A stretch of DNA of 64,000 nucleotides. Origin: Polychytrium aggregatum. Lineage: Eukaryota; Chytridiomycota; Chytridiomycetes; Polychytriales. This document shows positions 1-53,896 of this stretch, in pieces. Numbering within the stretch: the stretch's first letter is position 1; every line of letters starts with the position of its first letter. Position numbers and translations under genes: made by a program. Location: NCBI RefSeq assembly GCF_025602895.1, contig NW_026516204.1:62001-126000 (forward strand). The letters are read 5' to 3'. Below the pieces are notes generated by a model. It did no database searches. It had not been told where the DNA came from and worked only from the letters and a program-made list of their open reading frames with translations.

Positions 1-3000
1 GGCGAACACAGCGTGCTTGCGCTGTCCGAGAGCGTGGACCCAGAATCACTGAATCCGTGGGACTCGGAGAGCAGGATTCGGCTCCGATTCCCGTTTGAGG
101 ATGTGAATGTGGATGTGCATCTCGGTAAGTGCCACTCGATGATTGAGCATTCGCCGACCCATCGATTCGTTGCTGACCAGCAGTGCCTTTCTCGACTATG
201 GCGGGTGTCGCTGTTTCACACAAACAATCCGAAAATCACTTTTGCAGATGACCTGCTGCCCCGCATCGCCGAACTCGCTGAAAAGTCCCCCGATCGCAAA
301 ACCAAAGTTGCTGCCTGTGAGCTCCTCCACGTCATTGTCATCTGGATGGTCGGCAAGACTGCGACGGCGCCTCACGACAACGGAACGGAGCCATCCAAGG
401 TATGCTCCCTCGCCTCCTGGGCTGGCATCGCCTCCTTCACCGACCCAGAAGCGCGAAATTGGTGTGTGGCGTTCACTTTGATGACAGAGCAGTATCGAGA
501 CCAACTTGTTCTAACCATGTCGGGGCGCATGACTACATCCAGTCGCCGTTTTACCAGATTCAAGTCAAGATCTTCCCGATCCTCCTCCGCCTCGCAACCG
601 ACATTGACCACTTGGTTCGAAGCATGTTCCACGCTCTTGTCCACCAGCTCATTCACTGGCTCGCCCGCGGGCAGATGCGCGAAAACACCGAGGCCATGGC
701 AATGCTGCAAACCTGCCTGGACGCCACTCTTTCGGATGATGGGGCGGTAAGACGGAGACCAACTGGACAGCTTGACTGACGCTATGGCATGCTTGACAGT
801 CTGATGTCCAAGGAGCTCGCCAGGCGTTTGAATAGCTCATCGTGTGCCACTGATGCCTGACTGCCATTTCTGCTCCCAACGATATCCACCGACCGATAAG
901 CTCCGCGACATGGGCGCGGATTGCACCCTTGAGTTCTTTGAGTGTTCGCTCAAAACCAGCGGAAACAAGGTTTGGCTTTGCGTGCCCATTTTACCAGCTG
1001 CAGCCCGCCTGCACCCCCTCTTACATCCGCTACCCATGGCCCGGACTTCCAGGTCGACCGCAATACCGACAGCGGTGTCCAATCGCTGTTCACGAGGCTC
1101 TACGAGTACTGCAAACACTCTAACGTCAACAAGAGGCGCGGCGCATCGCTCATCTTCAATCGGATCTATCGGGCCTTCCGTGCAAGCAACAGCTTGGTGG
1201 AGCAGTTCACCTTTGAGCTTCTCTACCACTACCTCTGTAATCTTCGGTTGTCTGCTGCCGAGACAGAAAGCATTGGTGAGTCATGATTCACCGGCTTGCA
1301 ACTTCTTTCACTGCGGACCGTTGAGACTCAAAACCTCGCGCTCATGGCTCTTCCTTGACTTGGTGTTCATGACACGTTGGGTGAATAACCACTGCGTGCA
1401 TCCGAAACTCACTCAAGGCACTTGGGAGCAAGCCGGGATGGCCATAGATCATCTCAAGAAGATCCTGATCAAGAAGCATGCAGTGTTCATGGTCCGCAGC
1501 AAAGTGCGTCGCCCGTTCCCTGGTTTGGAGAGCGACGATCTTCCCTCCTTGATCAACTGGCTCTTCCGCGAGACACGACATACAGAGTCGGTCTATGCCC
1601 AAAGATGTCTGGAACTTGTGCTGGATCTCGTTCCTGTGTTCTCGGGTATGTCTCTCGTCTCTGGCGCACGATTGGAACATTCGACACTCAATATGATCTC
1701 CCAATGTCGCGATATGTGCATCCAACCAGCCCATTCAACTAATTTGTCCAGCCAATTTATCCAACTAATGTATAACCACTTTCTGCCTTTAGATGCACGC
1801 AGGTGGTTCGCCGGCCTGGTCAAGAAGCACCCCAGGCTTCTCGTCGATATATATGAAAAGTCGCTCGCAGTCCCGCCGGCTCGGCTACCGTGGTGCTCGA
1901 TCGCGTCCGAGCACCAAAATGGATATCTGATTGCGGCCCTGAATGCCTACACCTCACTTATCAAAACCGGAATGCTCGCTCCTCAAAACCTCATCGGTCA
2001 GGGCTACAGAGAACTTGTGGCTGCCTCCCAAGACTTCATGCTGCGATTCCAGACGGCAGACTTTGCGCCTGGAGAGGCTTTGAGCTCGGTTTCGCGAAAC
2101 CGCGCCCGAGTCCTCAAGACTGAGACAGCGGCCAGGATCATCGCGCTGTCTGCTGCGATCCTGGAAAGGCTCGACGATGATCACGATCATAGCGAGCTTG
2201 CTCTGCTGTTGTTTGGCGACAGCTTCTTGTACATGCTCGCTCGCCTCGTTTTTGAATGGACAGGCGACCTGCTGTTTGCCGACGCTGAAGGCAAGCAGTC
2301 CTTCGAAGCGACCCTTGCCAGTCTCCTCAGAGCAATGCTCGTTCGTGCGCCTGTCAAGCAAAAGGCTCTCTTTGTCGATCATGTCACTGCCATTGGCCGC
2401 ATCCCCAAGCTCGTCAGCGAAGCGGACGCAACTCTCGAGAGCGAGTCGTCCGAACTACACACGACCCTCCAAAGCGTTCAGGGATGGAAGACTCTGTGGT
2501 GCTGCGGCTGGCAGAACGAGATCATGGAGAAACACAAGATTTCCTCGCAGGCACTGTTCGACAATATCTGGAGCATCGTCAACAAACGCACTCACCAGAG
2601 TCTCAGTATTTCGCAGCGCCAGCTCCTCGAAGAACTGGTGGATTGGATGACCAAGAGCCTGGACGCTCGCACGGTGCTGTTTGAGAACGTTTTGGTGAGT
2701 CCCAGTCGCTTGCTGTCGGCATTATGGTGAGCAATTCACCCAGTGCGGGATGGACTTGGGCGCCTGGCTCACCTGTGGTTATTTGGATCGTGTGTACCTG
2801 CCGTTCAGGAGCCATCGCAAGACAAGCGTGATCTTTGCCAACAGTTCCCGAGACAGGTAAACTCGAGCGGCCGCTGCAACATGGCTCAGTCCGGTTGTAT
2901 GAGGCTCTCCAGTCCAACGGCATCCGACACCGATGAAATTGGCTTAACTTGTGTGCCTCTACCGCCGTCAGATCCATATGGCAATGGCAACCCACTTTGA

Positions 3001-6000
3001 CGAGTTTGTGCTGGCATCTCGCCGATCCTCGGCGGTTGATCGAGTCTTGGCGATACTGCAAGACCTCGGGACCTATCTTATCAACCATTGCACCCATATG
3101 GAGTCCGAGATCGCCGACTGGTTTGCTGAGGTATTTTCTAGCTACAGGGCAAGCACATGAACCAGGCCCCAGGCAGACCTGCACGGAATGGCTCTGCGTC
3201 TGGGAACCTCCACATGCAACGCCGTCTCATTGCCAACCGCATCCCGCAGGTGTCCCAGCGAAAGGACTACTTGGATTCAATCGCCGACAAAGTCGCCTCC
3301 TTCCGGCCCGATCTTGTCCACACCTTGGTGTACACTTGGAAGCGCTTCTTGTTTCTGTCGCACAAGCAAGCACACCGTATCGATGTCGAGGCCGTCCACT
3401 CCGTGCTGTTCGCCGGTATCGCTGTGGGCCTCCAGTCCAGCGTTCCACTCTCGATCAAAGTCGAGGCCTTTGAGGCACTGCCGTCATTTCTTCGGCCGTC
3501 ACCGAACCAATCGGCCTATCTATCGGTGGGTACCCGATTCTGATGCGTTAGGGCGTGGGCTCCTTGCGGGATATGAGCTGGCGAGGCATTTGTTGCTTGA
3601 ACGACTAAAATTGGCACTCTCGGACATTCACAGACGATCGAAAAGCTCCTGCACCAAACGGTTATGAGTCAGCTCCCGGTCAACGCCTCCGAGCTGGCGG
3701 AGGGGTCGGCTGGCCGTGAGGAATACGACAACGCTGCCCTGAATCTGCTCTCCGTGTTTGAGTCGTCCGGCGCCCTGTGCGTATTTAACCCCCTCAGCTT
3801 CCACATTTGTCGGCAGACGCAGTACCACCTTGCCGACAGCGTCAAACAGGCGGTCTCCAAGGCAGCTCACCTCGTCCCGTGCATGCAGTTCGCTGACATG
3901 TGCTTCAGGTGAGTCTTGCCAGCCGCTTCCCAGTGTTCGCCACAGGCCACTTGGCCCCGCACCGCCCAACTTTAAGCACTGCCATGACGCGCATCCCTTG
4001 ATTCGGAGCTCGGTTGGGGCTCGGCATAGTCCCGCAGAGCGCACGATCATGACTGAGCACTGATATTCCATCGCCCACATCGTTTGCATCGTTGTCTTGA
4101 ACGCGGATCGCCAGCTACTGCTTCGACGGCGACATTCCCTCGGCCAATCGGCGCACTATGGTCACTCTCATCCTTGTTCCGTTCCTGACCGCGATCAAAT
4201 CGGAGGACTTGTCCCAGGTCTTCCAAAAGTACATTAGAGTGATATCCCGGAGCTTCAACAAATCGCTTCCCTCGCGCCTGACGGACATCAAGCCTTACCT
4301 GATTGAAAAATCCTCGGCCTTCGACTTAATGACCATATCCTTTTGCGTCCGATTACTGTCCCATGCTTCCCTGGAGAGATCGGTGCATTGGCGCCCCTGT
4401 CATTATCTTTAACTCTGTCTTTCACCCCATCACGTCTGCTATCGCCGGCTACCGTTCGAAGAGCTCCATACTTGCGACGGAGCGATCGTCCGCTCCTCCT
4501 GCGATCCAGAGAGCCTCTCGGCCCAAGTGCTAACCAAGGCGTTGATGGTGGCAGCTTACAATGCGCGCAAGGATCTCTTTCCTCCCGAAGTCTTCCAAGA
4601 GAGCCTTCACGGACTGTTTGTGGAGTTTCAGCAGTGTGCATACAATGCTCTGGCCGCATCAACGATCAAAACTCAAAAGAAGGTACCTGCCAAAACCGTA
4701 ACTGCGATCGCCGAGAGCTTTGTCCTGGCATTTCGGTCGTGGGACCAGCTGCGAGCCTCAGTGCTGTCGTGACTGGGACAGAGTGATGCAGTCCTTGATC
4801 CACTCATGGCTGCACTTCAAGCCGGCATACTGCCTGCCTTTGTGCCGAGCTACGCGACTCTGCGCTGATATTTGATCTAAATGGGTGCCACTCACCAACC
4901 GCAACCCAGAAATCGTACTACGAGCTCTTTTTGTTCACCGACGACCACGCCAAGGGCGAGTTTGTCTGGAAGAACATTGTCGATACGAAGGTACGAGCCT
5001 ATCGCTCCGCCTACCTCGTCCGTACTGTGCAGCTGTGCTGACGCTGGAGAGAACAGACCCCGTTATTCTTTCCCCATGCACTCCACAAACCCATGGAGCG
5101 GCAGCGACTACGAGAGTTCAAGGATCGCTCTCACGAACTGGTGACTCGGAAGACTGCGATCAAGGACATTGCCTATCTCTCGTCTCAGTTTCTGATGGAC
5201 AGCAGCCTGGCGATGGTACGTGTGCGTGTGTAACTCGCTCTCTGCGTCTCACAATATCCAGATCACCAACAGTCCTGTCCATATTGAACCTAGTCGTTCG
5301 GCATGTTTATCGATCCAAATGTACCAGGTGTGGTCTTGTTCGACTCGGTGCAGGAAGCCATGTCGGAGCCTTCGATTCGCCGAGCTCGGTTGCGTGACTC
5401 ACCACGGACTTTGATGCTCGTAGATGTCGGCGATGACATAGCACCCGCGCTGCACAACGACCCTACGGCAGCGCTGGCCAGGACCCAGGCTCCTATCGAG
5501 CTGTCGGCAGCGACCACTCCATCAAACGTCCACGCGCGAATGTAAGGAATGCCCTATCCGAATGCGCTTTCACGCGGGCACCTCATCGGCTGATCCTAAC
5601 GCCAGCATATCACAACCCAGAAGCGACAGCTCTATCATTGAGATGGTAAATGATTATGCACGCTCTTCGGTGCGAGACGAGAACTCCCTCTGTGATATCC
5701 GAGGCCTCTCGATCGCAATCGCAGAGGACAGATCCACGGCAATCGCATCGCAAGGCGGCTTGGACCGGCAGGCCCGTCTGGACTCGACCTCTCGCACGTC
5801 TGGAGGCTTCACTCAAGCATTACCTGTGTCCCTGCGCTCTCGTTGCTTCACTTCAGGACGATCTCAACAAGCACCCGTGCATGCCTACGATGATGGCCGT
5901 ACTCCAGAAACTTCACGAGGAAATCACCCCTCCGCCGCCCCCGTCGACAGAGCGCACTCTGAACGCGCCGTTGCCCAAATGGATGCAGAAGCTGCTCGAG

Positions 6001-7971
6001 AAGATACAGCCAGGCAAGTACTAACGAACACACCTCACGTTTTTCATGCTAGCTGCTGCGGACCTGACGCTAAGCCCCCACTGCAGAGAACCACATCAAT
6101 GTCCGCCTGTTCATTGCAAAGCTCGTGGTCAACATGCCCGACGTATTCGCGCCGTACTGCCACAGCTGGTGGGGTCCTCTCGTTCAAGTCATTTTGTCCA
6201 GCAAAGAGTATGGAGAAGGCATCACATATTTTGTTCAGGTATGTTTGCATCCTGAGCAGAGCCGACTGGGCGCCAGTGGCGATGGTCACCACCCCGGGAA
6301 ATCCATGTGTGCCTGCCAGATCAGTGGCTTGTGCACCGCTGACCCGATATACCAAATACTCGCCGCAATGACCCCACCCTCAGGATCTGCTGATACAACT
6401 GATCACTTGGATCGACGACAATGGCTTGACTCCTGAAGACAATGCACCCAACAGAAAGCTCGTGTCGCTGCTCCTGGTCAGTGGATGCGTTGCAGTCAGA
6501 TCTGAATCTGGTTCGTTGTGTGTTGCACAGAGGTATGCAGCGGCTGGCCAACTCCTTCCAACTGCATGGTTCACAGGCACATCTGACAGCCCAAGCCGCC
6601 CACAAGTCCAAGCATGTTATCAATGGCAACCTGAAGCTCATGCGGCCGTTCGTCGAGAAATGGGGTAGCCTTCTGACTGCGCCCTCGGCCGAGATGAGGC
6701 AATTGATCACCAGCGACCAAAACAGCTCAGCCATGTGCGGGCTCTACATCCTGTCGATGCTGCTTTCGAATCGACGCGAGGCGGCGTGCTCCCGCGAAGA
6801 AACAACGCTTTTGCTGCGTGCCATCACGAGCCACTTCACCGCACGGAGCCAGGAGCTGCTGCTGGTGGCATCGCATGTGGCTGGCCAGTTCCTGGGCTTC
6901 TACAAGCAACACGATCCGACGTTGTTTGAAGAGTCGCGAAAATGGATATGCAAACAGGTAAAGTCGACGCCACGCTTGTTCTCACACTTGCTCACCAGGA
7001 CGGTGTGAAGCTTGAGGCTCGTGGACGCTAACTCTGTATCTCTCTGCACTTCAAGATCGACGAAACCGGAACCAGCGAGACAGATCGATGGGTATCCATC
7101 ATCGCATCGATAGCCAAAAACAGCCCTGAGATCGTGGGACATTACTACCGCGAGCTGTTGTTCAACTTGCCCAAGCTACAGGGGCGAGCGAAAGCCCACT
7201 GCCTCGAAGCCCTGGGCGCTGCAGCAGCCGATATCCCCCTGTTGTTCCAAGAACTGCAGGGCAAGAATCTCCTGGCCTTGATGACATACCGCGACGACGA
7301 GTGCCAGAAACTGACGCTGATGATCTTGTGGAAGCTAGCCTCAAATCTAGCCGACGATGACATTCTGTTCTTCTTGGAACCAGCCCTCCAGCTCTTCCAA
7401 CGTCATCCAAACGAACCGACAAGACATGCATTCTACTATCTTGTGGTGGATCTGCACCGTGCCTTCTCGAGCGACGGTCCGCATGGCCCTAGACACAGTC
7501 AGAGCGGCAAAGGCGGGCAAATCTATGAGTTGCTTAAGAAGGCCATGCTGCAGGGGCTGGGCGACGACGACGAATCAGTTCGTACCGGACTGATCGAGTA
7601 CATACACAGGGATCTGATGGGGTCGTCCACAGTCTTCAAGCATCTCGAGACGCTGTTCAGGTAGGGCAAGTCCGGCTTGCCCCGGGCCTGACATTGCATG
7701 CCACTCCTTGATGCCATGACTCTGACCCCGATTTACCGATAGCTCTCTCTATTTCACCGAGGCCGAGGATTCCTATCTGCACTATGCCGCCTATCTGCTT
7801 CTGGAAAAGACCAAAGCCTCTCCGCAGATCACCGAAGTGCTGTTTCCCGATGGATTTCCGAGCGCAACGTTCCGAGAACTTGCGCTGGATACCTCATGGA
7901 CCAACAGCGCGACCATGAGGCCGCTGTTTACGACGCCCAGGACCCAAATCTCAACACAGCACGTAAGGCAT

Positions 7972-8004
<33 letters not shown>

Positions 8005-11000
8005 GGGCAGACGGACATGTCAACGGCGCTCTCGATACGACGTGCGAACGGCCTGATAGCTGAAAGAATTTCCCCATGCTGACCCAGGTCGTCGGAGGAT
8101 CGTCCATGGACCGAACGGACACACAGCCGACTCTGGGATTTTCGCTCACGGCGGACGCCGCGGAGCTGCGAACGCACCTTGTCACCCCGCCAATCATCGA
8201 CGACAAGACGCAGTGGGCCATTCAAAGGTAAGTGGCCGCTTAGGCCTCTGCCAATGCTTCGAACAAATCCCATGCGGGCTGCACGAATTGTAGCTGTCTC
8301 GTCCCTCCCTGTTCTCTCCAACCTCCGATTGATCGTTTCCTGCAAGTCGCTGACCCCGTTGGCCGGAATCCACCACCATAGCCCAAGTCGTCTCGGCGAG
8401 CTTCGAAAGAGAAACTATGTCCACGATGAACAACAAACCGTCACGTACTTTTCGAAGCAGGCAGAGCGCTTGCGCAAATCTCGCTGGCGCGCCAAAGCCT
8501 ATCAGCGGGATCGCATCCTTAAATCCGTGGCGCTTGCACGCAAATACCGCATCGGAGATCTGCCGGATATCCAAATCACCTTCCTCGACATTATTCGTCC
8601 GCTGCAGAACCTCGTTCAGCGCGATGCAGAGATCAGCCAGATGCTCTTTGCCAACCTAGTGACGGCTCTCACCAAGCTCTGCCCAGTAAGTGCCGGCGTC
8701 TGCGGACTCGGATTCAGTACCCAGTGCCTGCCAATCAGGGCTGCAGTATTCTGCTTGTCTTTTGGAACGCCTCTCTCCAAGGGGATGGCGGGGCATTTGT
8801 CGATTGGATCACGCACACAGACAGCATGACGCTTCTGACTGATCTCTTCTGCTATCTAGCCTGAGGAGCGACTCGAGGAAGAACTTGGCGCACACCTGAA
8901 CCGCATGATCCGGTCCTCCACGCTGTTCTCCCACTCGTTCGTGAGGGCGATGCTTCTCATTGCCCTCCGTTGTCACTTGAAGATCGATGAAAGCGCCGTG
9001 CGTGAGGTTGCCACCAACAGCTTCAATCACGAGCTTGGAATAATGGTGCTGTGAGTATTTGCTGATGATCTTGCCCCCACTCGATTTTGATGTGGTGCTG
9101 TGCTAACCATGTGCCGACCATGTGCCGACCATGTGCTTTGACAGAGAAAACCAAATTTCCAATGTTGCCGCAGCCCCAGGTAGGCTATGGGTGTCTCGCT
9201 CGATGATGTTTCAAATATAGCATTCTGCGCCTTGCCAGAGCAATCCGTTGCTCGCGATCGATACGTACTCCTCTGGAATACACCAAGGCACCTAATGTCC
9301 AACGCAATCACCGTGATCGATATAGCTCCGAAGCGGCAGAAGCGCCATGCCGATGCGCCACGACCGTTTTCGCAATGGAAACAGGTCGCCAGACTCTTCC
9401 GAAACCTGGGCTCAGTCGAGATCTACCAAGGCATACATGAAGAGTATCTGTGCTCGCACCCCGCAATCAAAGGTACGTGTAGCTTGCGGCTGCAGATGTC
9501 GGGTGCTCGGGACTTTAACTTGACTGCTGCGCGAGGCTCACACTCAATGTACACACGATCCTCAAGCCGCGATCTCGGCAGAGACCCTTGGGGACTTCAC
9601 CCACGCGCTGCGGCTCTATCAAGAGATCACGGACCAACTTGGATCAGAAGATAGTTCCAAGCTGCCCGAGGATGAGTACAGCTATATGGCAAGTGTATTC
9701 AGATGCAGCTATTGGCGAATGGAGTACTGAACAGTCGGCACTGGAGGCAGTCTGACAGCCGTGGCTCGCTGGCACTGTTTTGGCTAACGGCAAAACCTCT
9801 GAACCTTGGCAGTGCGACATCCTCTCGCAGGGCCAAGTCGAATGCATGGCAAAGCTCGGCTCTTGGGATCATTTGGCCGCCACGGTCGAGAGAGATCTCC
9901 GAGAATACTGCGGCTCCTTCAACACACATGTGCTCTGGGATGATCCGATCCGCGAGCCATACCTGCGTCTCTTCATACGAACGTTTATCCGCCTCAAGAC
10001 TGGGTACAGATCCTCGAGCTTGGATACTGGCCAGAATGCAGATGTTGAGAGTAAGATGCCATTGTCGCGCTCCACGATGATACGCCGCTGTGCGCGAATG
10101 AAGCTGAGCCGATCGAACATAATCCACACCGATGTCTCGGTGTTGATGCCCCCGGTGAGATCTGCGCTCGTGACACTCATACGGTCCATTTCAATGACTC
10201 AGTGTTTGTCGAATGGAGCAACGATCATCCCAATCCGCTCGTCGGGTTCTTGGAACGCGAGATAGCGGATCCAGCAAACCAGTAAGATCCTGCGTGTCCA
10301 AATTCGGGCACTTGTGCATTTCCACGATGAATCTGCTGGGCTCTCCTTAGTTGATCTTGATCCTGCACAGCGAAGCTATGCACATTCGAAGAAACTCACC
10401 GTCTCTACCGATCTGTGCCCCCAGACTGTATCTCGAAAAGTTCTTCTCGACCGGTAAGCCTGCGCATTAGCTTCATGTATATAGCTGCTCGGCACCACAA
10501 TCTAAACGCTAACCTTCGTCAACAGAGCTGGCTGTAAATGCCCTGAACAGCAACAACCCGGCTGCAGCCCGGTACTTTGTTGCTTCGGCGTATGACCAAT
10601 GGCTGAAGGACTTTTCGCATATTGGAGGCCACGCCCAGACCATCAAACGCCAGCTCATGAACCGTCTGCAGGTGGTGAGTATCGATTGCGGTCATCGCAG
10701 AGAGCCGTTTGGGTGCTGTTGTAGTGCGCCGAATTCTGATAGGTGATGTACCGCCCTTCAGATCGAGGAGATTCAGGAGGGTCTGGATCTGGTTCTCAAC
10801 ATCCCGCAAGCCCAGCCCATAGAGGCGCTTGAGAACCTGCTCCTTCAGTGGCAGAATCGGTAAGCCGCATGTGCCTGCTGGTGGACATGCGATACCCCGC
10901 GCACCATTGAGCTGACTTTCGATCGTTGGTCTCAACAAACAGCTATCCGTCAAGAATTACAGCTCCGCTGGATACCTGGGATGATCTGGCGACTTATCGC

Positions 11001-14000
11001 CAGCACATTATGCAGTGGATGACGACGAGCGTCAAGGGACAGGTGGGTTATCCGCGCTCACTACAGGCGATTGCGTGCACATAGGCATTGTACTCACCAA
11101 CAAAATGCCGCCCAGATCGCGGACCCGCAGCAACTCGATGACATACTCAGGAAGCATGAGCGTCAGTTTGCCTTTGAGATGATCACTGTTGCCGCCCGCC
11201 GTAAAAACTTTAGCCTGGCCATGTCGTGGCTGGAGCACATACACTCCGGACAGGCAGCGGCGATCGACATCTTCGATGAGGACTACTACTATCAACTGTT
11301 CAACACGACACTGCTCGAGATTGAAGCCCGACCCGCCGGACAGGACATGCAACAAACCGCGACCAATCTGCTTCTGAACTTTCTGTTCTACCAGGTATAC
11401 AGGGCTGCCTGCATGTATCGAGATGGCTTGTGCACAAGCATTCAGAGTCTGTAGATTGATCTCGCGCACACCTGAACACAGGAACACATTGAGCGTCTCG
11501 ATGGACCCAGCAAGCGCCGGTTTCAGTTGCTGGAGGGCCGCTTCTTTTCTTCGCTCTCCAGCGCCATGACGACTGATGCAGCCTCGGCTGTTGACGCTAA
11601 GGCCTTGAAGCGGAAAATCGTCCGTCGGCACTTTGGAACGCTTGCGTCCGTGGACGACTTGACTCCGCTGGCGGTCCAGCGCGCCTTCGATCTCCTTTCG
11701 GCGGCGGGAAATGCCACGGACGTAAGTATCATATCAGTCGATACCAGCACGATGACCCAGCAATGTCCTGATCCTTACTGACACACTCGGTCCCGGCTCA
11801 ACCCAGAACGCCGCCCGAGTCGAGCAAAAGATGCACTTGGCCTCGCATTGCGATGCCGTTCTGCGGTTCCATGAGCTCCAAGCCAATTCCGATGACCAGG
11901 TAAGCCACAACACCCGCCCTTCGTCAGAAGCTTGGCCCAAGCTGATCGTGCAACGGCGTTGCTACAGGAGATGGAAACGACCGTCATCGAGCAACACAAA
12001 TGTGTTCTCGCTGCCAGTATACTGGACTCGATGGCCCTTGGCTCCGAAGAAGCCATATCGCAGTTTCCACGGCTCCTGGAGTTCCTCGGCTCAGCAATGT
12101 TTCAAGCAGACTTCAAGAAACGGGTATGTGCGGCGCTATCCAACGCGGCCTCCGTCAAACACCAGATCACAACAACATCCTGCGGCACTAACTCATTTCT
12201 ACCGATCACAAATGCTCGTTTGGCCTGCGCTTGCTCGGGTCACCATGGCAGATCACGATAGTCCCGTCATGGATGTTCCTTCGTTGGCTTCCGAATCTCA
12301 CAGCGATCTTTGACAAGCCCGCGGGACACACAATCACGCCGATTTTGATGGAGGTACTGTGCCAGAATTGCATTTCCCATCGGTAGACCGTGGGAGAAGC
12401 ACGATTGTGGCATTTTTACTGATGGAAGTCCGTTCATGGTATCAGGTTGCGAAGGAGTATCCCGAAGCTCTCCGCTATCCCTTGAACATAAGCAGCGATC
12501 AATACGCATTTGACGAGAGCACCAAACTAGGCAGGGTCCAAAAGGCGGCTCATGCGCGTCTGAAGGAGATGATCCGATCAGAACTTGCCGACCAGCTGCT
12601 GAGGGAACTCAAGCGGCTGCAGGAGCCCATCCATGTGCTCAAGGAGTGGATGGAGCGGACCGAGGTAACTGTTGACGATGTCGCACTCAACTTGTCCGTG
12701 GAGCAGATCGCTTACGATCTTGCTCGATAGGATCTCTTGTCCCGGTCGGCCGGCCAAGCACCGAAAGAACAAATTGCAGCCCTCTTCAAGGACATGAGCG
12801 AATACTGCATCCAGGCGTCCACCCGCGGAGGAATGAGCGAATCTGATATCCTTTTCAGACCATCTGGCCGCACCAAGGCCGTTACTGACCCTCACATCAA
12901 TCAACTTTGGCCATATTGTCCTTAACTATCTGTCTCTACGTCAGCTGTTTGCGCGAGATAATACCGAAAAGATCACACGCCTGTGTGGTAAGTTGGCTGT
13001 ATGACATTGGTTCGGTCACGAATCGCAGATGCGAGCCTGATGCACTGTTTTCTCAAAAATAACGACCCACACTACAGGCAAGGACGGCTCGAAAATCGCC
13101 GAGATGACAGCAGACGACTTTAAAAAGAACGTTGTTCGCTTCAAAGGATTCGAGCAGCGCGATTTGCAAGGCAAGAGCGGCTCGGGGGTGCTCAAAAACT
13201 ACTCGCGATGGCTGGAGGAGTTCCACTCGAATAACTACGATGAGGTGAGAATCACAATCTGCTCGAGTAGGCATGAGCTGGCAGCCGCTGCCATCCACCG
13301 CGATGCTAATTTGAACCAACCTATCCAGACTGTGGAAATTCCCGGGCAGTATCATGGCCGACAACGTCCGAACCCGTCGGAGCACGTTACGATAACAAGC
13401 TTTTCATCCAAGCTTCTGCTTTTGGCATCGATCCGCAAGCCCAAGCGCTTGATTATCAATGGAAGCGACGAAAAAGAGTACCCCTGGCTCGTCAAGGTAT
13501 CTGGCAATGCGTTGCGTCGTGTGACTGTGGCTCGGCTTCCAGTGCGGTCGATTTTTGGAACATAAACAAGCGTGCCGCACGACTCACCTCCATGCCCGGC
13601 GCAACAGGCGGGTGAGGATCTGCGTCTCGACCAGCGAATCCAGCAAATCTTTGGAATCATGAACGGCATCCTCAGGAAAAACCAATACTGTCTGAGCCAA
13701 AATATGTCGATCCACACGTACAAGGTACAATCGATGCGCCGCCAGCCCGACTGCTCCGTCTTCCATCCTGCTTTGTGCTTCTGATCGTGGATGGGCCCAA
13801 AGGCTTGCCTATCGTGCAGCGATAGCCTGATGTCTCACACACTCGATTCATCGCCCACTCTCTTCATTGGAATCGCCGCCTGTGGTGGCCATCAATACTG
13901 CTGCATCGCCTCGGCTCTCTAGGTTGTGCCCATGAACACTGGCCTCGGCATCATCGAGTGGGTCAACAACACCAAGCCACTCAGACAATGCATGGCCGAC

Positions 14001-15776
14001 ATTCCTGGATTCAACGACGAGCTCAAGAGGGCCAAGGACATATTCTTTGATTCTCTCAAAAAAATGGGCGGCAGCTACGAAATCGCCGGTGCGAATCGCT
14101 CTGGAACAGAGATCCGATGGTGTCAATGCCACCGGCTTGCATGGCTTGGCTGCGGCTGCTCAATATTGGCCCGTTATCGCAGCATGGCATCTCACCAACC
14201 GCTCTCTCTGCACACGCAGCCTACACCACGGCATATAGACGGGTCAAGGCCGATGGATACACCAGAAACATGCAGCAGCTCTGGGGATGCTTCTCCAAGC
14301 CCTACCTCAAGGAGAGCCTTCTGCTCTTGTGCAAGTCGCCCGAGGCCTTTTTTGCGCTGCGCTCGCGCTTCAGCCAGACGCTGGCGGCCTTCAATATTTG
14401 CTCGTACTTGCTCGGTACGTCAGTGCAGACGATGCTCACCGATTCGAGTGGCAGTGCACTTTTCTGCGTCTCATGCTGCGTGTACAAGACTAACCGGAAC
14501 GATTCGACACTTTGATCCACAGGCATCGGGGATCGCCACTTGGAAAACTTTTTGATCAGCCAAAAGAGGTGGGCAGCAACGCTCCTGTGTATCTGTCCTC
14601 GTTGTGGCTCTGTGACTCTGCGTGCTTGCAGTCCTCAAGCGCCTAACCCATGGTTGGTCCCACAGCGGCGAGGTGATCGGAATCGACTTTGGCTTGGCAT
14701 TCGGGTAAGACCCTCAGCACTGGCGGACCAAATGAGATGGATTGCGCTGGCCCGGTGGCCCACGCAACCTGTGGATGTGGATGTGGATGTGGATGATGTT
14801 GTCAACTGATTCGATTCGATCCGTCACGGCTGGCTTGGGATTGCGGCAGATCCGGTGCAGAGAACCTGCCGATTCCCGAGATTGTCCCCTTCCGGGTTAC
14901 CAAGCAGATGGAGCGAATGATGGAGCCCCTCGGTGTCAATGTCCTGCTCAAGATCCCGATGGTTCACGCAATGACCGGTTAGTGGCCCACGCAAGCCCCT
15001 GTTCCACTCTCGTTGCTTCGTCCCCATTGTTGTCTGGCGACGTTGACAGGCTATGGGTTCTTTTCGCAGCAGTGCAAGATGAAAAGCGAGCATTGGTGAC
15101 GGCCCTGGATATCTTTGCCAAGGAGCCCATCGTCGAGTGGCGCAAATACGCCAAGGCTCAAATCGAAAAGCAAAAGCGAAGTATGGCCTGCCCTCGAGCT
15201 GCATTCTTCCAGAACTCGGCGACCCCCGAGGACTGGGAACTCGCCAAGACGCAATGCCGATACGAACTTTGGACGGCCTCGCTGTCGAGAGGCCATATCT
15301 GTCTGCGGCTGCCATCTAATGCCCTTGTCCCGTCCGTGATACTGCAATCAACCTACAGGAGGAAAATACTCCAGTGCGGAGCCAGATCTATCGTCGGAAG
15401 ACTCCATCGCGGCAGTGCCGGCCTGGTATCCAAAGCAGAAGATCCAGACGGCCATCCGCAAACTGAACCGCGATCCCCCGCTCGGTAGGCCCAAGTCTCG
15501 GCCGCACTGTCCTGCACACGTTTCGAGCGTGTTCGATGCCGGCGAGACTAACTTTGTCCATTGACAGACATTTTGCTTGAAGAGCTGGCCCGCGGCCATC
15601 AAGAGAAGGACTGGTTCAAGGCCCTGTGTCAAGGACTGCTGGAAACACAGGAGCAGCCCGCCAGCAGCCGACCAGAGGCCCCCACGGTCGAAGCGCAGGT
15701 GTCCAAGCTCCTGTCGATGGCGACCGACCCCAACATTCTCGGCAGGGCTTACTTTGGCTGGACATCGTTCCTTTGA
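1..15776 (+). CDS. PRKDC: DNA-dependent protein kinase catalytic subunit (DNA-PKcs), 5' truncated by window
   Basis: Giant PIKK of non-homologous end joining, recruited by Ku to DNA ends in the nucleus. The reading frame is spread over roughly 40-50 small exons separated by introns mostly of 60-120 bp, so the gene is visible only as exon fragments. Landmarks collinear with animal DNA-PKcs: KTKVAACELLH (exon 248-400), KIFPILLRLATDIDHLVR (about 570), SLVEQFTFELL (about 1195), RYRIGDLPDIQI-type FAT entry (KYRIGDLPDIQI, about 8540), NFSLAMSWLEHIHS (about 11210), LASIRKPKRLIINGSDE (about 13425), GEDLRLDQRIQQIFGIMNGIL. The catalytic loop is GIGDRHLENF (exon 14523-14568) and the metal-binding motif IGIDFGLAFG (exon 14666-14704), so the kinase looks active. 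The last exon, 15568-15776, ends in FATC with ATDPNILGRAYFGW followed by a stop. The N-terminal part lies upstream of the window. No disabling break was noticed, but not every exon junction was checked. Confidence 0.93.
7969..8020 (+). repeat. (CAGA)n microsatellite in a PRKDC intron
   Basis: An imperfect run of CAGA units lies in the intron between the exon ending at 7962 and the exon starting at 8089. It is intronic and does not interrupt the frame. Confidence 0.85.
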
Positions 15777-26915: not shown

Positions 26916-27149
26916 GGAGTTGGTGAGTATTGTTGCAGCGAGCTGGGGGGGGGGGAAGAGGAGCCGATTGATGCAGATCAGGGATCGGCGAGATCGATGA
27001 GATCGACAAACCGCGCCACGTCGAGCCAAATATCGAGTTGGCATTCTTGATCATCGGATGAATGTTCTGCCTTCACCTTGCTTCGCCGCCTTCTCCCTCA
27101 TCAGCCCTGCCTGTCTGTCGCTCTGCCCGCTGAGCGCTCCCCACATATC

Positions 27150-28676
27150 ATGGATCTCAATGCCACCACTCCCTCTGCCATCGATGCGGCGCTGCTGTCG
27201 CCTTCCAGCCACAGCCCTGACATCTTCACCATCGTGTGCTGCAACGACGGCTTCCAGCTCCAGCTCGATTATGCCACCATCCAGACCCTGCTCCAAGTCT
27301 GCAAACGGGCCAGACCCCTGCTGAGCGCCAAAGTGAATCGCTTCCGCAGATGGTGCCAGGATGCAGGACTGTGTCATCCAGACGGGTCGATGAGGATCGT
27401 CCTCACACCGAGCGACCAGATCGCCATCTCGCCTCATTGCGATGAGCAAGTTGCAGCAGACCGATCCTGGCTCATTGACCAAGCCGACCAAGGCAACGCT
27501 GCCGCCTCATTCTTCGTGGCCCGGATCCTCCAAGTCGAGCTCGCTGACCAGAAATCTACAGGCTGGCGAGAGCAGGGAGACAAGCAGCGGCAAATCTTCC
27601 AATATCTGGAAGCAGCAGCCAAAGCAAACCATCCGATGGCACAGTTCCACTTGGCTGAGTGTTATCTTCATGGCCATGGAATCAGCCAGGACCACACCAA
27701 GGCTGTCGAGTTGTATCGTGACCTCGCAGAGCGTGGACTTGCACAGGCTCAAGTTGGCCTCGGTCGATGTTTCGAGAACGGCGAAGGAGTTGACCAAGAC
27801 TACGAAACTGCCATCAAGTGGTACACCAAGGCTGCGAACCAAGGCAGCGACAGCGGTCGACTCCATATCGTGTTCCTCCGTGGCTGGTTCTCGCTCGTTG
27901 GCCACGGTGTTGGACAGAGCGACGCCGATGCGCTCAAATGCTGGCAGGAGGTCAGCACACAGTCCACCGACATAGCCATCAAGTCGATTGCCACGCACAT
28001 GGTTGGGTGGATGCACTACCTCGGCCGGGGCGTCGAGCGAGACCAGCAGAAGGGAGTCAAAATCATCCGTGAGAACGAGTCGGACGAGTTTCCGCTCGGG
28101 GAAGGCGATTGCCTGGCCGGGGGATTTGCCGAGCCTTGGATCTACTCGGACTCGCTCGCTGTACGCAAGTTCTTCAAGTTGTGCCAGTTTGGATCGGAGC
28201 GGGACTGGCTGTGCAAGCACCTTATGGCCATTTGCCTGATATATGGACTAGGAACCGAGTTGGAACCAGAAAACGCAGCGAACATTTTCGAGCAGCTCGC
28301 CAACGATGGCCACAGCGACAGCCAGTTCTCGATTGGAGAGTGCTACTACGATGGCAACGGGCGATCGAGGGACAAAGCGAAAGCAATCCGATGGCACGAA
28401 AGCTCCGCCAACCAGGGTAATTCATATGGCCAGTGGATGGTTGGGTGGTGCCGTTCCTTTGAACACCAAGTGCCCGAGGGCAGCACCATATCAGCCGAGT
28501 GGTATCGCAAGTCGGCCGAGCAAGGCAATCGATATGGACAGTTCTATTTTGGCGAGTGTCTCCAATTTGGTTACGGTATCGACCGAGACATCGACGCCGC
28601 CATCGTCTGGTATCGCAAGTCTGCAGAGCAGGAATTTCAACTTGCCATCGACATCCTTGAGAGCCTTGGAAATTAG
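27150..28676 (+). CDS. Sel1-repeat protein, copy 1 (508 aa)
   Basis: Single exon. The start at 27150 is chosen because the paralogue at 52382 begins with the same MDLNATTPSAIDAALL; an in-frame ATG also exists at 27078. Residues about 25-80 form the family's N-terminal module: PDIFTIVCCNDGFQLQLDY, then TLLQVCKRARPLL, then the VNRFRRWCQDAGL helix. From about residue 110, eight or so Sel1 (TPR-like) repeats follow, with A-x2-x-L-G and G-x-G-V-x-x-D signatures such as LGRCFENGEGVDQDYETAIKWY. Sel1 arrays are adaptor scaffolds; no enzyme domain is present. Its N-terminal third is almost identical at DNA level to the 52382 gene, and its middle to the 30763 gene. It converges with the gene that ends at 29165. 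Confidence 0.85.
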   Translation: MDLNATTPSAIDAALLSPSSHSPDIFTIVCCNDGFQLQLDYATIQTLLQVCKRARPLLSAKVNRFRRWCQDAGLCHPDGSMRIVLTPSDQIAISPHCDEQVAADRSWLIDQADQGNAAASFFVARILQVELADQKSTGWREQGDKQRQIFQYLEAAAKANHPMAQFHLAECYLHGHGISQDHTKAVELYRDLAERGLAQAQVGLGRCFENGEGVDQDYETAIKWYTKAANQGSDSGRLHIVFLRGWFSLVGHGVGQSDADALKCWQEVSTQSTDIAIKSIATHMVGWMHYLGRGVERDQQKGVKIIRENESDEFPLGEGDCLAGGFAEPWIYSDSLAVRKFFKLCQFGSERDWLCKHLMAICLIYGLGTELEPENAANIFEQLANDGHSDSQFSIGECYYDGNGRSRDKAKAIRWHESSANQGNSYGQWMVGWCRSFEHQVPEGSTISAEWYRKSAEQGNRYGQFYFGECLQFGYGIDRDIDAAIVWYRKSAEQEFQLAIDILESLGN

Positions 28677-29164: not shown

Positions 29165-30763
29165 TCAGCGGTGTTGCGCAAACGACTTGCGAGACCAGTA
29201 TGTCGAGAGCTCCCAGTCCCTGGCAACGCCGTAGCCATTCCCATAGCAGAACCCGAGGTCATACTGGGCCTGCCGATGACCCTGCTCGGCCGCCTTGCGG
29301 TACCACTCGACCGCCTTGGCGAGATCTCTGGACACTCCACCATGATGATAGTAGCTGTGCCCAACCATCCACTGTCCGTACGGGTTGCCTTGATCGGCTG
29401 ACTTGCTAAACCACTCGAACGCCTTCGAGTAGTTCCTTGGCTTTCCCCAGGAGCCGTAGTGGCACTGTCCCAGCCAGTACTGGCTGTCGCTATGGTTCTC
29501 GTTGGCAAGCTGCTCAAAGATTCTTGCGGCCTTGTCGTGGTTCTGCGTCACTCCAAAGCTGTGGATCAGGCAAACGGCCATGAGATGCCGGCACAGCCAG
29601 TCCTGCTTGGACCCCAGTCGACACAGCTTGAAGAACTTGCGTGCGGCAAGCGAGTCGCAATACTGGAAATCTTCTTCGGTCCGACAGTCGAGCTCCCCGA
29701 GCAGAAACTCGTCCGACTCGTTCTCACGGATGATTTTGACTCCCTTCTGCTGGTCTCGCTCGACGCCCCGGCCGAGGTAGTGCATCCACCCAACCATGTG
29801 CGTGGCAATCGACTTGATGGCTATGTCGGTGGACTGTGTGCTGACCTCCTGCCAGCATTTGAGCGCATCGGCGTCGCTCTGTCCAACACCGTGGCCAACG
29901 AGCGAGAACCAGCCACGGAGGAACACGATATGGAGTCGACCGCTGTCGCTGCCTTGGCTGACAGCCTTGGTATACCACTCGATCGCTGTGGTGTAGCCTT
30001 GGAAGCTCTTGACGTTCTCCAAGCATCGGCCGAGGCCGACCTGGGCTGGTGCATATCCGCGATCGGCGAGACTGCGATACAACTCGGCGGCCTTGGATGT
30101 GTCTCGCTTGGTTCCGTATCCGTTGTGGCAGCATTCGGCCATGTAGAATCGCGCCACCGGATGGCCGGCATCGGCTGCCTTCTTTACGTAGTAAAATGCG
30201 AGTCTGCGCCGCGAGTCGTGCCTGGTGTCGCTCGCGGATCCAGTGTCGTCGGACGCATCGTCGTCATCGGCATCATCATCATCATCGTCGTCGTCGTCTT
30301 CGTCTTCGTCATCGTCATCGTCCGAAGAATGATGTGTGTCGTCGTTGTCTTCTGCCCTCGTCTTGATTTCAGACTGGAGGATCCGACCCAGGAGATACGA
30401 AGCAGAACAGCGACCCTTGTCGGCCAGGGCGACGAGCCAGGATCGGTCGGCTCCGGCTGGGTCGTCGCAGTGCAGCGAGATGGCGATCCGGTCGCTGGGT
30501 GTGAGGCCGATTCGCAGCTGCCCGTCTGGACGACACAGCCCTGCTCCCTGGCACCAGTGGTCGAAGCGAGACAGCCTGGAGCTCAGGAGGAGCCGAGCCC
30601 GTTTGCACACGAGAAGCAGCGCCGGGATTGTGGCATCGTCGAGAGCAAGCTGGAAGTGGTCGTTGAAGGCCACAATGGTGAAGATGTCTGGAAACAGGAG
30701 GACTGGCTCTGCGGCATCGGGTGAGGCATGGGCGCTGACAAGGGTGGCTGGGGTGGCTGCCAT
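29165..30763 (-). CDS. Sel1-repeat protein with acidic tract, copy 2 (532 aa)
   Basis: Single exon, minus strand, start MAATPATLVSAH at 30763. It has the same N-terminal module as copy 1 (FPDIFTIVAFNDHFQLALDD, LLLVCKRARLLLSS, RLSRFDHWCQGAGL), then a unique insert (about 30245-30350) made almost entirely of Asp/Glu and Ser. Sel1 repeats follow to the end (LGFCYGNGYGVARDWELS). The stretch 29690-29952 is nearly identical, in inverted orientation, to 27840-28108 of copy 1, including synonymous sites, while flanking parts are diverged. The start codon lies 10 bp from a seven-copy 16-bp minisatellite, which must therefore be in the 5' UTR or core promoter. Function is unknown beyond a scaffold role typical of Sel1 arrays. 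Confidence 0.85.
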   Translation of the reverse strand: MAATPATLVSAHASPDAAEPVLLFPDIFTIVAFNDHFQLALDDATIPALLLVCKRARLLLSSRLSRFDHWCQGAGLCRPDGQLRIGLTPSDRIAISLHCDDPAGADRSWLVALADKGRCSASYLLGRILQSEIKTRAEDNDDTHHSSDDDDDEDEDDDDDDDDDADDDDASDDTGSASDTRHDSRRRLAFYYVKKAADAGHPVARFYMAECCHNGYGTKRDTSKAAELYRSLADRGYAPAQVGLGRCLENVKSFQGYTTAIEWYTKAVSQGSDSGRLHIVFLRGWFSLVGHGVGQSDADALKCWQEVSTQSTDIAIKSIATHMVGWMHYLGRGVERDQQKGVKIIRENESDEFLLGELDCRTEEDFQYCDSLAARKFFKLCRLGSKQDWLCRHLMAVCLIHSFGVTQNHDKAARIFEQLANENHSDSQYWLGQCHYGSWGKPRNYSKAFEWFSKSADQGNPYGQWMVGHSYYHHGGVSRDLAKAVEWYRKAAEQGHRQAQYDLGFCYGNGYGVARDWELSTYWSRKSFAQHR

Positions 30764-30773
30764 GGCGTGCGAT

Positions 30774-30893
30774 CGGATGCGGATGGTGTCGGATGCGGAT
30801 GGTGTCGGATGCGGATGGTGTTGGATGCGGATGGTGTTGGATGCGGATGGTGTTGGATGCGGATGGTGTTGGATGCGGATGGTGTTGGATGGG
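30774..30893. repeat. 16-bp minisatellite, seven copies
   Basis: The unit YGGATGCGGATGGTGT (Y = C in the first three copies, T in the last four) is repeated from 30774 to 30885, plus a partial unit. It sits directly upstream of the minus-strand Sel1 start at 30763, in a 404 bp divergent intergenic region shared with the LRR gene at 31168. Confidence 0.95.
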
Positions 30894-31167
30894 TGAATGG
30901 GCAGGAGAAAGAGGGGAAGCAGGGTGGCCCAGCCAAAGTCACAAACATTCGACGGCCCAGACCCGCAATCGAATCCGCCATGCCGCCCAATCACGTGCTC
31001 GGCCATCCCGCCCGGGTCCGCCGCAGCCAGCCACAAGCCGGCCCTCCCGCGGCCGCTTTGCACTATCAATTTTTTCCACCCGACGACGCCGTCCACCGCC
31101 CGAGCGATAGCAGCCGGCAAGAGAAACCAGCCAGCAGACACCCTCTCCCGGAGAAGAGACTACACCG

Positions 31168-51842: not shown

Positions 51843-51915
51843 GGGGAATTAGCTCAGATGGTAGAGCGCTCGCTTAGCATGCGAGAGGCACGGGGATCGA
51901 TACCCCGATTCTCCA
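51843..51915 (+). tRNA. tRNA-Ala (AGC)
   Basis: 73 nt, intronless. The acceptor stem GGGGAAT pairs with ATTCTCC (one G-T), with discriminator A. Anticodon AGC is in the loop CTTAGCATG. Box A (TAGCTCAGATGG) and box B (GGATCGATACC) are present. No T-run follows; the next tRNA starts after a 7-nt spacer. Confidence 0.95.
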
Positions 51916-51922
51916 CTCACCC

Positions 51923-51995
51923 GCCCGGCTAGCTCAATCGGTAGAGCGTGAGACTCTTAATCTCAAGGTTGTGGGTTCGACCCCCACGTTGGGCG
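51923..51995 (+). tRNA. tRNA-Lys (CTT)
   Basis: 73 nt, intronless. Acceptor GCCCGGC pairs with GTTGGGC, with discriminator G. The anticodon loop is CTCTTAA with CTT. Box B is GGTTCGACCCC. No terminator follows; the spacer to the next tRNA is 4 nt. Confidence 0.95.
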
Positions 51996-51999
51996 ATCA

Positions 52000-52073
52000 G
52001 CTCCTATGGCGCAATTGGCTAGCGCGTTCGGCTGTTAACCGGAAGGTTGGTGGTTCGAGCCCACCTAGGAGCG
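52000..52073 (+). tRNA. tRNA-Asn (GTT)
   Basis: 74 nt, intronless. Acceptor GCTCCTA pairs with TAGGAGC, with discriminator G. The anticodon loop CTGTTAA contains GTT. Box B is GGTTCGAGCCC. It is followed at once by a T-run. Confidence 0.95.
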
Positions 52074-52145: not shown

Positions 52146-52222
52146 TCATGCGTCGCCATCCGATGCCCGGGAACGCCACCACAATCGCAGACCAGCATGT
52201 CGAGAGCTTCTGCTCCCTGGTG
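52146..52222 (-). pseudogene. Relic of the 3' end of a minus-strand Sel1 paralogue
   Basis: Read on the minus strand, the sequence gives TREQKLSTCWSAI, matching the C-terminus ARDWELSTYWSRKS of the gene ending at 29165. The adjoining GTCGCCATCCGATGCCCGG stretch matches the 3' flank at about 29099-29117. No further Sel1 coding is seen; the homology stops about 90 bp before the shared 5' region of the next Sel1 gene. It is too short to be functional. Confidence 0.55.
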
Positions 52223-52381
52223 ACGTCGGGCAGGGGTGGCGAGTCAGCATCGCCGCCGTGGGAATCGGATCGAATCACAAGCCAACTTGTTTTCATGACC
52301 CGTTTCGGCCTGCTTCGCCGCCTTCTCCCTCATCAGCCCTGCCTGTCTGTCGCTCTGCCCGCTGAGCGCTCCCCACATATC

Positions 52382-53896
52382 ATGGATCTCAATGCCACCA
52401 CTCCCTCTGCCATCGATGCGGCGCTGCTGTCGCCTTCCAGCCACAGCCCTGACATCTTCACCATCGTGTGCTGCAGCGACGGCTTCCAGCTCCAGCTCGA
52501 TTATGCCACCATCCAGACCCTGCTCCAAGTCTGCAAACGGGCCAGACCCCTGCTGAGCGCCAAAGTGAATCGCTTCCGCAGATGGTGCCAGGATGCAGGA
52601 CTGTGTCATCCAGACGGGTCGATGAGGATCGTCCTCACACCGAGCGACCAGATCGCCATCTCGCCTCATTGCGATGAGCAAGTTGCAGCAGACCGATCCT
52701 GGCTCATTGACCAAGCCGACCAAGGCAACGCTGCCGCCTCATTCTTCGTGGCCCGGATCCTCCAAGTCGATCTCGCTGACCGACAGTCCGTAACCGAGCC
52801 CCAAAGGTATGCCGCACGACAGCAGATTTTCCAATATCTGGAAGCATCAGCGAAAACGAACCATCACGGGGCAGGATGCCACTTGGCCGAACATTATCGA
52901 AATGACTATGGATTCCATCGAGACTACGACAAAGCACTTGAATTGTATCGTGACCTCGCAGAGCGTGGACTTGCACAGGCTCAAGTTGGCCTCGGTCGAT
53001 GTTTCGAGAACGGCGAAGGAGTTGACCAAGACTACGAAACTGCCATCAAGTGGTACACCAAGGCTGCGAACCAAGGAAACACCGACGGCAAACTCCGAGT
53101 CGAGTTCCTCCGTGGCTGGTTCTCGCTCGTCGGCCACGGTGCCGAGCAAAGCGACGCCGATGCGCTCAAATGCTGGCAGGAGGTCAGCACACAGTCCTCT
53201 GATCCAGTCATCAAACCCATCGCCACGCACATGGTTGGGTGGATGCACTATCTCGGTCGTGGGACACCCCAAGACAAACAGAAAGGAGTCAAAATCATCC
53301 GTGAGAACGAGTCGGACGAGTTTCCGCTCGGTGAAGAGAGCACGTTCACAGGATATCCAGCCTCCTCCAAGTTACCCGCTGCCCGAAAGTTCCATCAGTT
53401 GTGCCAGTTTGGATCGGCACAGGACTGGCTGTGCAAGCATCTCAAAGCTCTGTGCTTGATCCAAGGATTTGGAACGACCCAAAACAAGGATATGGCAGTG
53501 GAAATCTTCGAACAGCTCGCCAACGACGGCCACAGCGACAGCCAGTATTGGATTGGGGAGCACTACAGCCGTAGCTGGGAAGCATGCCGTGACCAGACCA
53601 AGGCCTTCAAGTGGTTCAGCGCATCTGCAGACCAGGGCAACTCGTATGGGGAGTTTAAGGTTGCAGAGTGCTACTATTATGGAACCGCAGTCGCCAGCGA
53701 CGAGGACAAGGCGGTTGAGTGGTATCGCAAATCGGCCGAGCAAGGCAATCGAAAGGCGCAATATGAACTTGGCGATCTCTATCTGATGGGTATGAGTATT
53801 CCCAAGGACCGCAACGCTGCCGCCGAATGGTTCCTCAAATCCGCCGCGCAAAATTACACACCTGCCTTCTCCAGGATCGAATCCCTAGGCCTGTAA
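52382..53896 (+). CDS. Sel1-repeat protein, copy 3 (504 aa)
   Basis: Single exon. The start MDLNATTPSAIDAALL is shared with copy 1; the frame is open further upstream through the tRNA-proximal sequence, but that part is not protein-like. The N-terminal module is almost identical to copy 1 at DNA level from about 52311 to 52783, covering promoter-proximal sequence too. The Sel1 array contains LGRCFENGEGVDQDYETAIKWY and LRVEFLRGWFSLVGHG. The stretch 52934-53300 is nearly identical to 55510-55160 of the pseudokinase gene, inverted. The C-terminal repeats (KVAECYYYGTAVASDEDKAVEWY) are more diverged. A scaffold role is inferred from the repeats only. Confidence 0.85.
   Translation: MDLNATTPSAIDAALLSPSSHSPDIFTIVCCSDGFQLQLDYATIQTLLQVCKRARPLLSAKVNRFRRWCQDAGLCHPDGSMRIVLTPSDQIAISPHCDEQVAADRSWLIDQADQGNAAASFFVARILQVDLADRQSVTEPQRYAARQQIFQYLEASAKTNHHGAGCHLAEHYRNDYGFHRDYDKALELYRDLAERGLAQAQVGLGRCFENGEGVDQDYETAIKWYTKAANQGNTDGKLRVEFLRGWFSLVGHGAEQSDADALKCWQEVSTQSSDPVIKPIATHMVGWMHYLGRGTPQDKQKGVKIIRENESDEFPLGEESTFTGYPASSKLPAARKFHQLCQFGSAQDWLCKHLKALCLIQGFGTTQNKDMAVEIFEQLANDGHSDSQYWIGEHYSRSWEACRDQTKAFKWFSASADQGNSYGEFKVAECYYYGTAVASDEDKAVEWYRKSAEQGNRKAQYELGDLYLMGMSIPKDRNAAAEWFLKSAAQNYTPAFSRIESLGL

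Follow-up and report, generated by a model that had tools for sequence, protein, structure and literature searches.

The window analysed here, a stretch of 64,000 nucleotides (C112:62001-126000) from a fungal genome of 64.7 Mb in 418 contigs, opens inside a gene on the + strand for DNA-PKcs (PRKDC), a giant kinase of DNA-break repair known chiefly from animals. The stop codon, a TGA, lies at window positions 15774-15776, where the initial annotation had placed it; that annotation let the gene begin at base 1, and this must be amended, as the real start is an ATG upstream of the window, at C112:57759. Positions given below without a contig name are those of the window.

Exon models were built with our own exon-chain program, trained on the frames of the window itself. 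Model 1 runs from the ATG to the TGA in 65 exons and encodes 3921 residues. For model 3 the program was retrained, tiny exons were penalized and GC donors were allowed; this model has 66 exons and encodes 3947 residues with zero internal stops, and its 65 introns have a median length of 108 bases (range 66–322). Models 2 and 3 differ from model 1 by an additional exon of 157 bases and a different splice at 5776; the GC donor of the adjoining intron caused model 1 to miss this exon. Three introns of the gene model have such donors, 5750-5856 (GCAAGG), 6014-6086 (GCAAGT) and 9689-9812 (GCAAGT). In model 3 the window begins at residue 858 of 3947, and the 5′ part of the gene occupies C112:57759-62000.

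The features of the in-window part are listed below, with Pfam E-values from model 1 unless stated otherwise; CC3 was re-scored on model 3.

1..15776, + strand: DNA-PKcs (PRKDC) gene, as far as it lies inside the window (residues 858-3947); predicted from an ATG-to-TGA model without stops and from DNA-PKcs matches
546..1196, + strand: DNAPKcs_CC1-2 (PF20502), best stretch, model 1; Pfam E 1.6e-46 for the protein
4910..6416, + strand: DNAPKcs_CC3 / NUC194 (PF08163), profile positions 144-385 of 389; E 3.9e-49, 168.1 bits
6471..8120, + strand: DNAPKcs_CC5 (PF19704), best stretch, model 1; Pfam E 1.4e-81
7933..8391, + strand: loop of 60 residues with four S/TQ sites; by alignment it corresponds in position to the human ABCDE loop
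8392..8544, + strand: basic stretch that corresponds in position to the human DEB-A/DEB helix, from alignment to human DNA-PKcs
8545..8607, + strand: YRPD motif, YRIGDLPDIQITFLDIIRPLQ, residues 2687-2707; exact fit to the published pattern YRxGxxPD
10438..12078, + strand: FAT domain (PF02259), model 1; Pfam E 2.3e-12
13479..15143, + strand: PI3/PI4-kinase-type catalytic domain (PF00454); Pfam E 2.3e-44, human DNA-PKcs E 3.7e-68
15684..15773, + strand: FATC domain (PF02260), with the C-terminal end ATDPNILGRAYFGWTSFL; Pfam E 5.2e-08

Along the protein the Pfam domains follow in the order DNA-PKcs_N, CC1-2, CC3/NUC194, CC5, FAT, kinase and FATC. Four domains named for DNA-PKcs are thus present besides the last three, each of which scores above its curated Pfam cut-off. 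DNA-PKcs_N (E 1.5e-102, model 1) lies mostly upstream of the window, and the CC3/NUC194 match improved from 6.8e-32 on model 1 to 3.9e-49 on model 3. The collinear DNA-PKcs blocks up to FATC and the peptides quoted in the initial annotation were all recovered: GIGDRHLENF is encoded where exons 14220-14414 and 14523-14568 join, IGIDFGLAFG across exons 14666-14704 and 14850-14977, and the terminal peptide ATDPNILGRAYFGW inside exon 15568-15773, directly before the stop. Its description of the kinase core as intact agrees with retention of the catalytic residues, namely the lysine (13494-13496), the aspartate (14531-14533) and asparagine (14546-14548) of GDRHxxN, and the aspartate of DFG (14685-14687).

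The YRPD pattern is given in PMC10419180 and PMC8549938. Four of the 28 S/TQ sites of the whole protein fall in the 60-residue loop that precedes the basic stretch; at least four were reached there in none of 2000 residue shuffles that kept the composition, a test that is after the fact because the TQ sites had been noticed before the bounds of the loop were set.

Assignment to DNA-PKcs

ATR/Mec1, ATM/Tel1, TOR and SMG1 are likewise PIKK kinases, and the genome has its own ATR, SMG1 and two TOR-like genes. The regions outside the kinase set the window gene apart from all of these. Residues 1-1502 of model 3 matched six distinct PDB sequences at E ≤ 1e-10, all six of them DNA-PKcs, the best at 2e-127 over residues 71-1182; a 698-residue stretch from the middle of the protein gave the same outcome at that threshold (6/6 DNA-PKcs, best 3.9e-70). 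None of these 12 matched sequences belongs to ATR, ATM, TOR or SMG1. For the CC3 and FAT regions, class was tested by Pfam alone. The kinase-FATC piece matched DNA-PKcs at 3.7e-68 (233 bits), the next class, among the best 60 of 146 matches, being ATR at 4.1e-34 (121 bits). The strength of the Pfam, PDB and kinase-FATC matches led us to reject chance resemblance.

A kinase tree was computed from 11 rows: the window gene, human DNA-PKcs, ATM, ATR, SMG1 and mTOR, yeast MEC1, and the ATR, SMG1 and two TOR-like genes of the same genome. Hand editing removed seemingly unspliced stretches from three of the genome's own outgroup rows (ATR and both TOR), and the ATR row and one TOR row contain a few guessed residues. 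The window gene and human DNA-PKcs, which are 39% identical over 252 kinase columns, were grouped at 100/100; as the human row is the only other DNA-PKcs included, the tree informs on class only and not on history within DNA-PKcs. The window gene falls outside the ATM, ATR, TOR and SMG1 classes, membership in which we reject. The initial annotation's preference for PRKDC over ATM, ATR or TOR is thus borne out by the tree, which also excludes SMG1. By its predicted domains, its motifs and its position in the tree, the window gene is a DNA-PKcs.

All PIKKs share a kinase fold, and many classes occur among the kinase-FATC matches, which might favour another PIKK class; such a class, or contaminating animal or protist DNA, has a negligible probability in view of the 100/100 grouping and of domains found only in DNA-PKcs. 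Contamination was rejected because the gene lies on a contig of 1.46 Mb that has an allelic partner contig, in a genome with fungal marker families. As such we take a family 15 mannosyltransferase (6e-70), which adjoins the Ku70 gene, and chitin synthase, whose N-terminal domain gave 13 matches on 10 contigs. IFT57, presumably a marker of cilia or flagella, gave eight matches on two contigs, which suggests that the fungus makes flagellated swimming cells. A search for COX1 gave no match, and hence no mitochondrial contig from which the genetic code could be read.

The predicted protein resembles human DNA-PKcs in its domain order, the YRPD motif, the basic helix before it, the kinase and FATC. 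It differs in total length (3947 residues against 4128) and in the loop at the ABCDE place, which has 60 residues here and ∼117 (2605-2721; PMC8549938) in the human protein. It also has IDFGL where the human protein has IDFGH, and it terminates in GWTSFL rather than GWEP... According to the same review, DNA-PKcs is found in Mucoromycota and Chytridiomycota and is absent from Dikarya (Lees-Miller et al., cited in PMC8549938), and it is by this statement that we liken the window gene to the DNA-PKcs of early-diverging fungi. The presence of DNA-PKcs outside Dikarya, which the initial annotation had treated as new, is therefore already in print, at least in that review; a limited literature search, which included part of PMC9779921, found no other report of fungal DNA-PKcs.

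Other PIKK loci of the genome were found with kinase queries. SMG1, to our knowledge missing from model yeasts, has an orthologue (E 5.1e-94) at C112:1109000-1117500, elsewhere on the contig of the window. In the second TOR-like gene (C1:1105.5-1106.7 kb) the main kinase match contains two TGA and two TAG, which probably reflect introns and possibly decay. Further loci found with the kinase profile look by eye like TRRAP-like and phosphoinositide kinases.

Intactness, end-joining partners and probable function

We conclude that the gene is very probably an intact DNA-PKcs gene, present as two allelic copies in a flagellated, early-diverging fungus, and working as DNA-PK does elsewhere. Most simply, DNA-PKcs was kept by descent and later lost in Dikarya; we infer vertical descent. 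Expression, kinase activity, end capping and autophosphorylation are predicted from the sequence, and most likely the protein functions as DNA-PK does in other organisms. Ku70/80 would bind a broken end and, with the C-terminal domain of Ku80, would bring DNA-PKcs to it; the DNA end would be held and capped by the helical ring together with the basic helix that precedes the YRPD strand; two end-bound complexes would then pair the ends, and the kinase would phosphorylate the S/TQ-bearing loop. Release of DNA-PKcs would let ligase IV and XLF seal the break.

Two sets of observations bear on this reading, the first of which concerns the gene itself. Against the reading, the exon structure is a computer prediction by a home-made program, in which short exons such as 5294-5327, 5621-5645 and 5732-5749 have weak support. 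Across the gene the second allele, on contig C360, shows 29 substitutions, and its only indel lies in an intronic G-run. In model 3, ten of the 29 substitutions are coding, and seven of these ten change an amino acid. Random changes in this coding sequence would do so in a share of 0.74, which is close, so that comparing the alleles gives no sign of constraint. The second allele also has an altered acceptor base at 15072, in the kinase region, where the surrounding sequence is CAGCAG and an acceptor three bases earlier is usable, with one residue added. The weakly supported exons, the acceptor polymorphism and the near-neutral replacement share might together indicate a decaying gene that is still intact in appearance. 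This we consider very improbable, given 3947 open codons in one allele, a second allele free of stops and coding indels, and retention of the catalytic residues and of YRPD. The coding frame is open in both alleles.

The second set concerns the partners of DNA-PKcs, which were sought with profiles over the unspliced contigs of the genome and then with Pfam on spliced models. The Ku domain matched on C46 (twice), C397 and C414. In favour of the reading, the spliced Ku80 model carries Ku_N, Ku and Ku_PK_bind (PF08785, E 7.5e-24), and the Ku70 model Ku_N, Ku and Ku_C; Pfam found no SAP domain in Ku70 at E ≤ 0.01, despite a terminal stretch that looks SAP-like by eye. The LIG4 model has the ligase domains and BRCT (2.1e-10), with the LIG4-specific PF11411 just below its cut-off (21.0 against 22.1). 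XLF is probably present as well; it is the weakest of the set, with 36 bits after splicing against a cut-off of 24.6 and an E of 0.024, below the cut-off, in unspliced DNA. Against it, XRCC4 gave no match at E ≤ 1 in unspliced DNA, a search in which control genomes were equally silent, and Artemis gave none in a search of unspliced DNA that had no positive control. A single DRMBL gene was found, on two contigs, and is SNM1A-like (DCLRE1A 1.7e-18, Apollo 0.005), Artemis not being among its matches at E ≤ 0.01. Ku_PK_bind is weak evidence for use of DNA-PK because PMC11936186 reports the domain from almost all fungal Ku80 of its set, that of S. pombe included.

The same set includes the tail of Ku80, which likewise counts against the reading. 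PMC8549938 describes, at the end of Ku80, a DVDDLLDM motif that makes contact with the NUC194 domain and co-occurs with DNA-PKcs. The Ku80 gene lies on C46 at about 338-343 kb, and its frame, on the − strand of the locus near 339 kb, ends after ITSDECPDCGAH, four residues beyond a Pfam match that reaches position 107 of 120. No DVDDLLDM-like tail was found in three frames over the ∼213 bases up to the ATG of the next gene, in one copy of the locus. That next gene we take to be pescadillo-like; the program's own Ku80 model was spliced past the stop and into it, and was judged wrong. Provisionally, a Ku80 that appears to lack such a tail conflicts with the co-occurrence described in PMC8549938.

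The initial annotation had proposed that an active-looking copy would put animal-type end joining in this lineage. The proposal holds in part: Ku70, LIG4, a probable XLF and a Ku80 that has the PK-binding domain speak for it, while Artemis and XRCC4 went undetected in searches without positive controls and the Ku80 tail motif was not seen.

A human ATM kinase query against the unspliced genome gave 17 matches at E ≤ 0.001, none of them ATM/Tel1. All 17 lie at loci assigned to SMG1, the two TOR-like genes and ATR, by best PDB matches for ATR, SMG1 and the TOR-like gene on C98 and by eye for the TOR-like gene on C1. We provisionally regard ATM as apparently lacking from the genome.

A true DNA-PKcs might then be recruited by DNA directly or by way of the globular domain of Ku80, with no need of the tail, or might be used mainly elsewhere, for instance at telomeres or as a break-signalling kinase replacing ATM. 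Tail-free recruitment would fit a Ku80 that has Ku_PK_bind and no docking tail, although the tail could lie in an overlooked exon. A role in place of ATM would fit kinase searches that gave no ATM orthologue, although ATM may be split over short exons, as is the window gene, which reached an E of only 6.4e-4 in the unspliced kinase-profile search. Most of the core non-homologous end-joining set is present, which also counts against this alternative as a whole. We regard it as unlikely. In a more specific form, DNA-PKcs would be the main double-strand-break kinase, recruited tail-free after loss of ATM and of the Ku80 tail, the reverse of the situation in Dikarya, where ATM/Tel1 was retained and DNA-PKcs disappeared; this we hold to be doubtful.

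Neighbouring features and implications

Elsewhere in the window, large similar frames with Sel1-like repeats were recognized by eye at 27105-28676, 29165-31006, 52163-53896 and 54540-57083; one of them is joined to a kinase-like domain, and the set resembles an expanded local family. Three tRNA genes, for Ala(AGC), Lys(CTT) and Asn(GTT), are clustered at 51843-52073. Upstream of the window, within ∼C112:43064-47200, lies a gene for a class C G-protein-coupled receptor-type seven-transmembrane protein (7tm_3, E 6.2e-31), and near it, on the opposite strand, a frame that by eye looks like a papain-like protease.

It is well supported that the window gene is a good new example of the fungal DNA-PKcs already reported, and not a surprise; the less ordinary aspects, provisionally, are the apparent absence of ATM and of the Ku80 tail. 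Should the fungus belong to a phylum other than Mucoromycota and Chytridiomycota, the known range of DNA-PKcs would be extended as well. A full-length DNA-PKcs is now available alongside the Ku80, LIG4 and probable XLF of a single early-diverging fungus, so that one can ask at what point in the ancestry of Dikarya DNA-PK disappeared, and whether fungal DNA-PK can operate without a Ku80 tail, perhaps even without Artemis or ATM.

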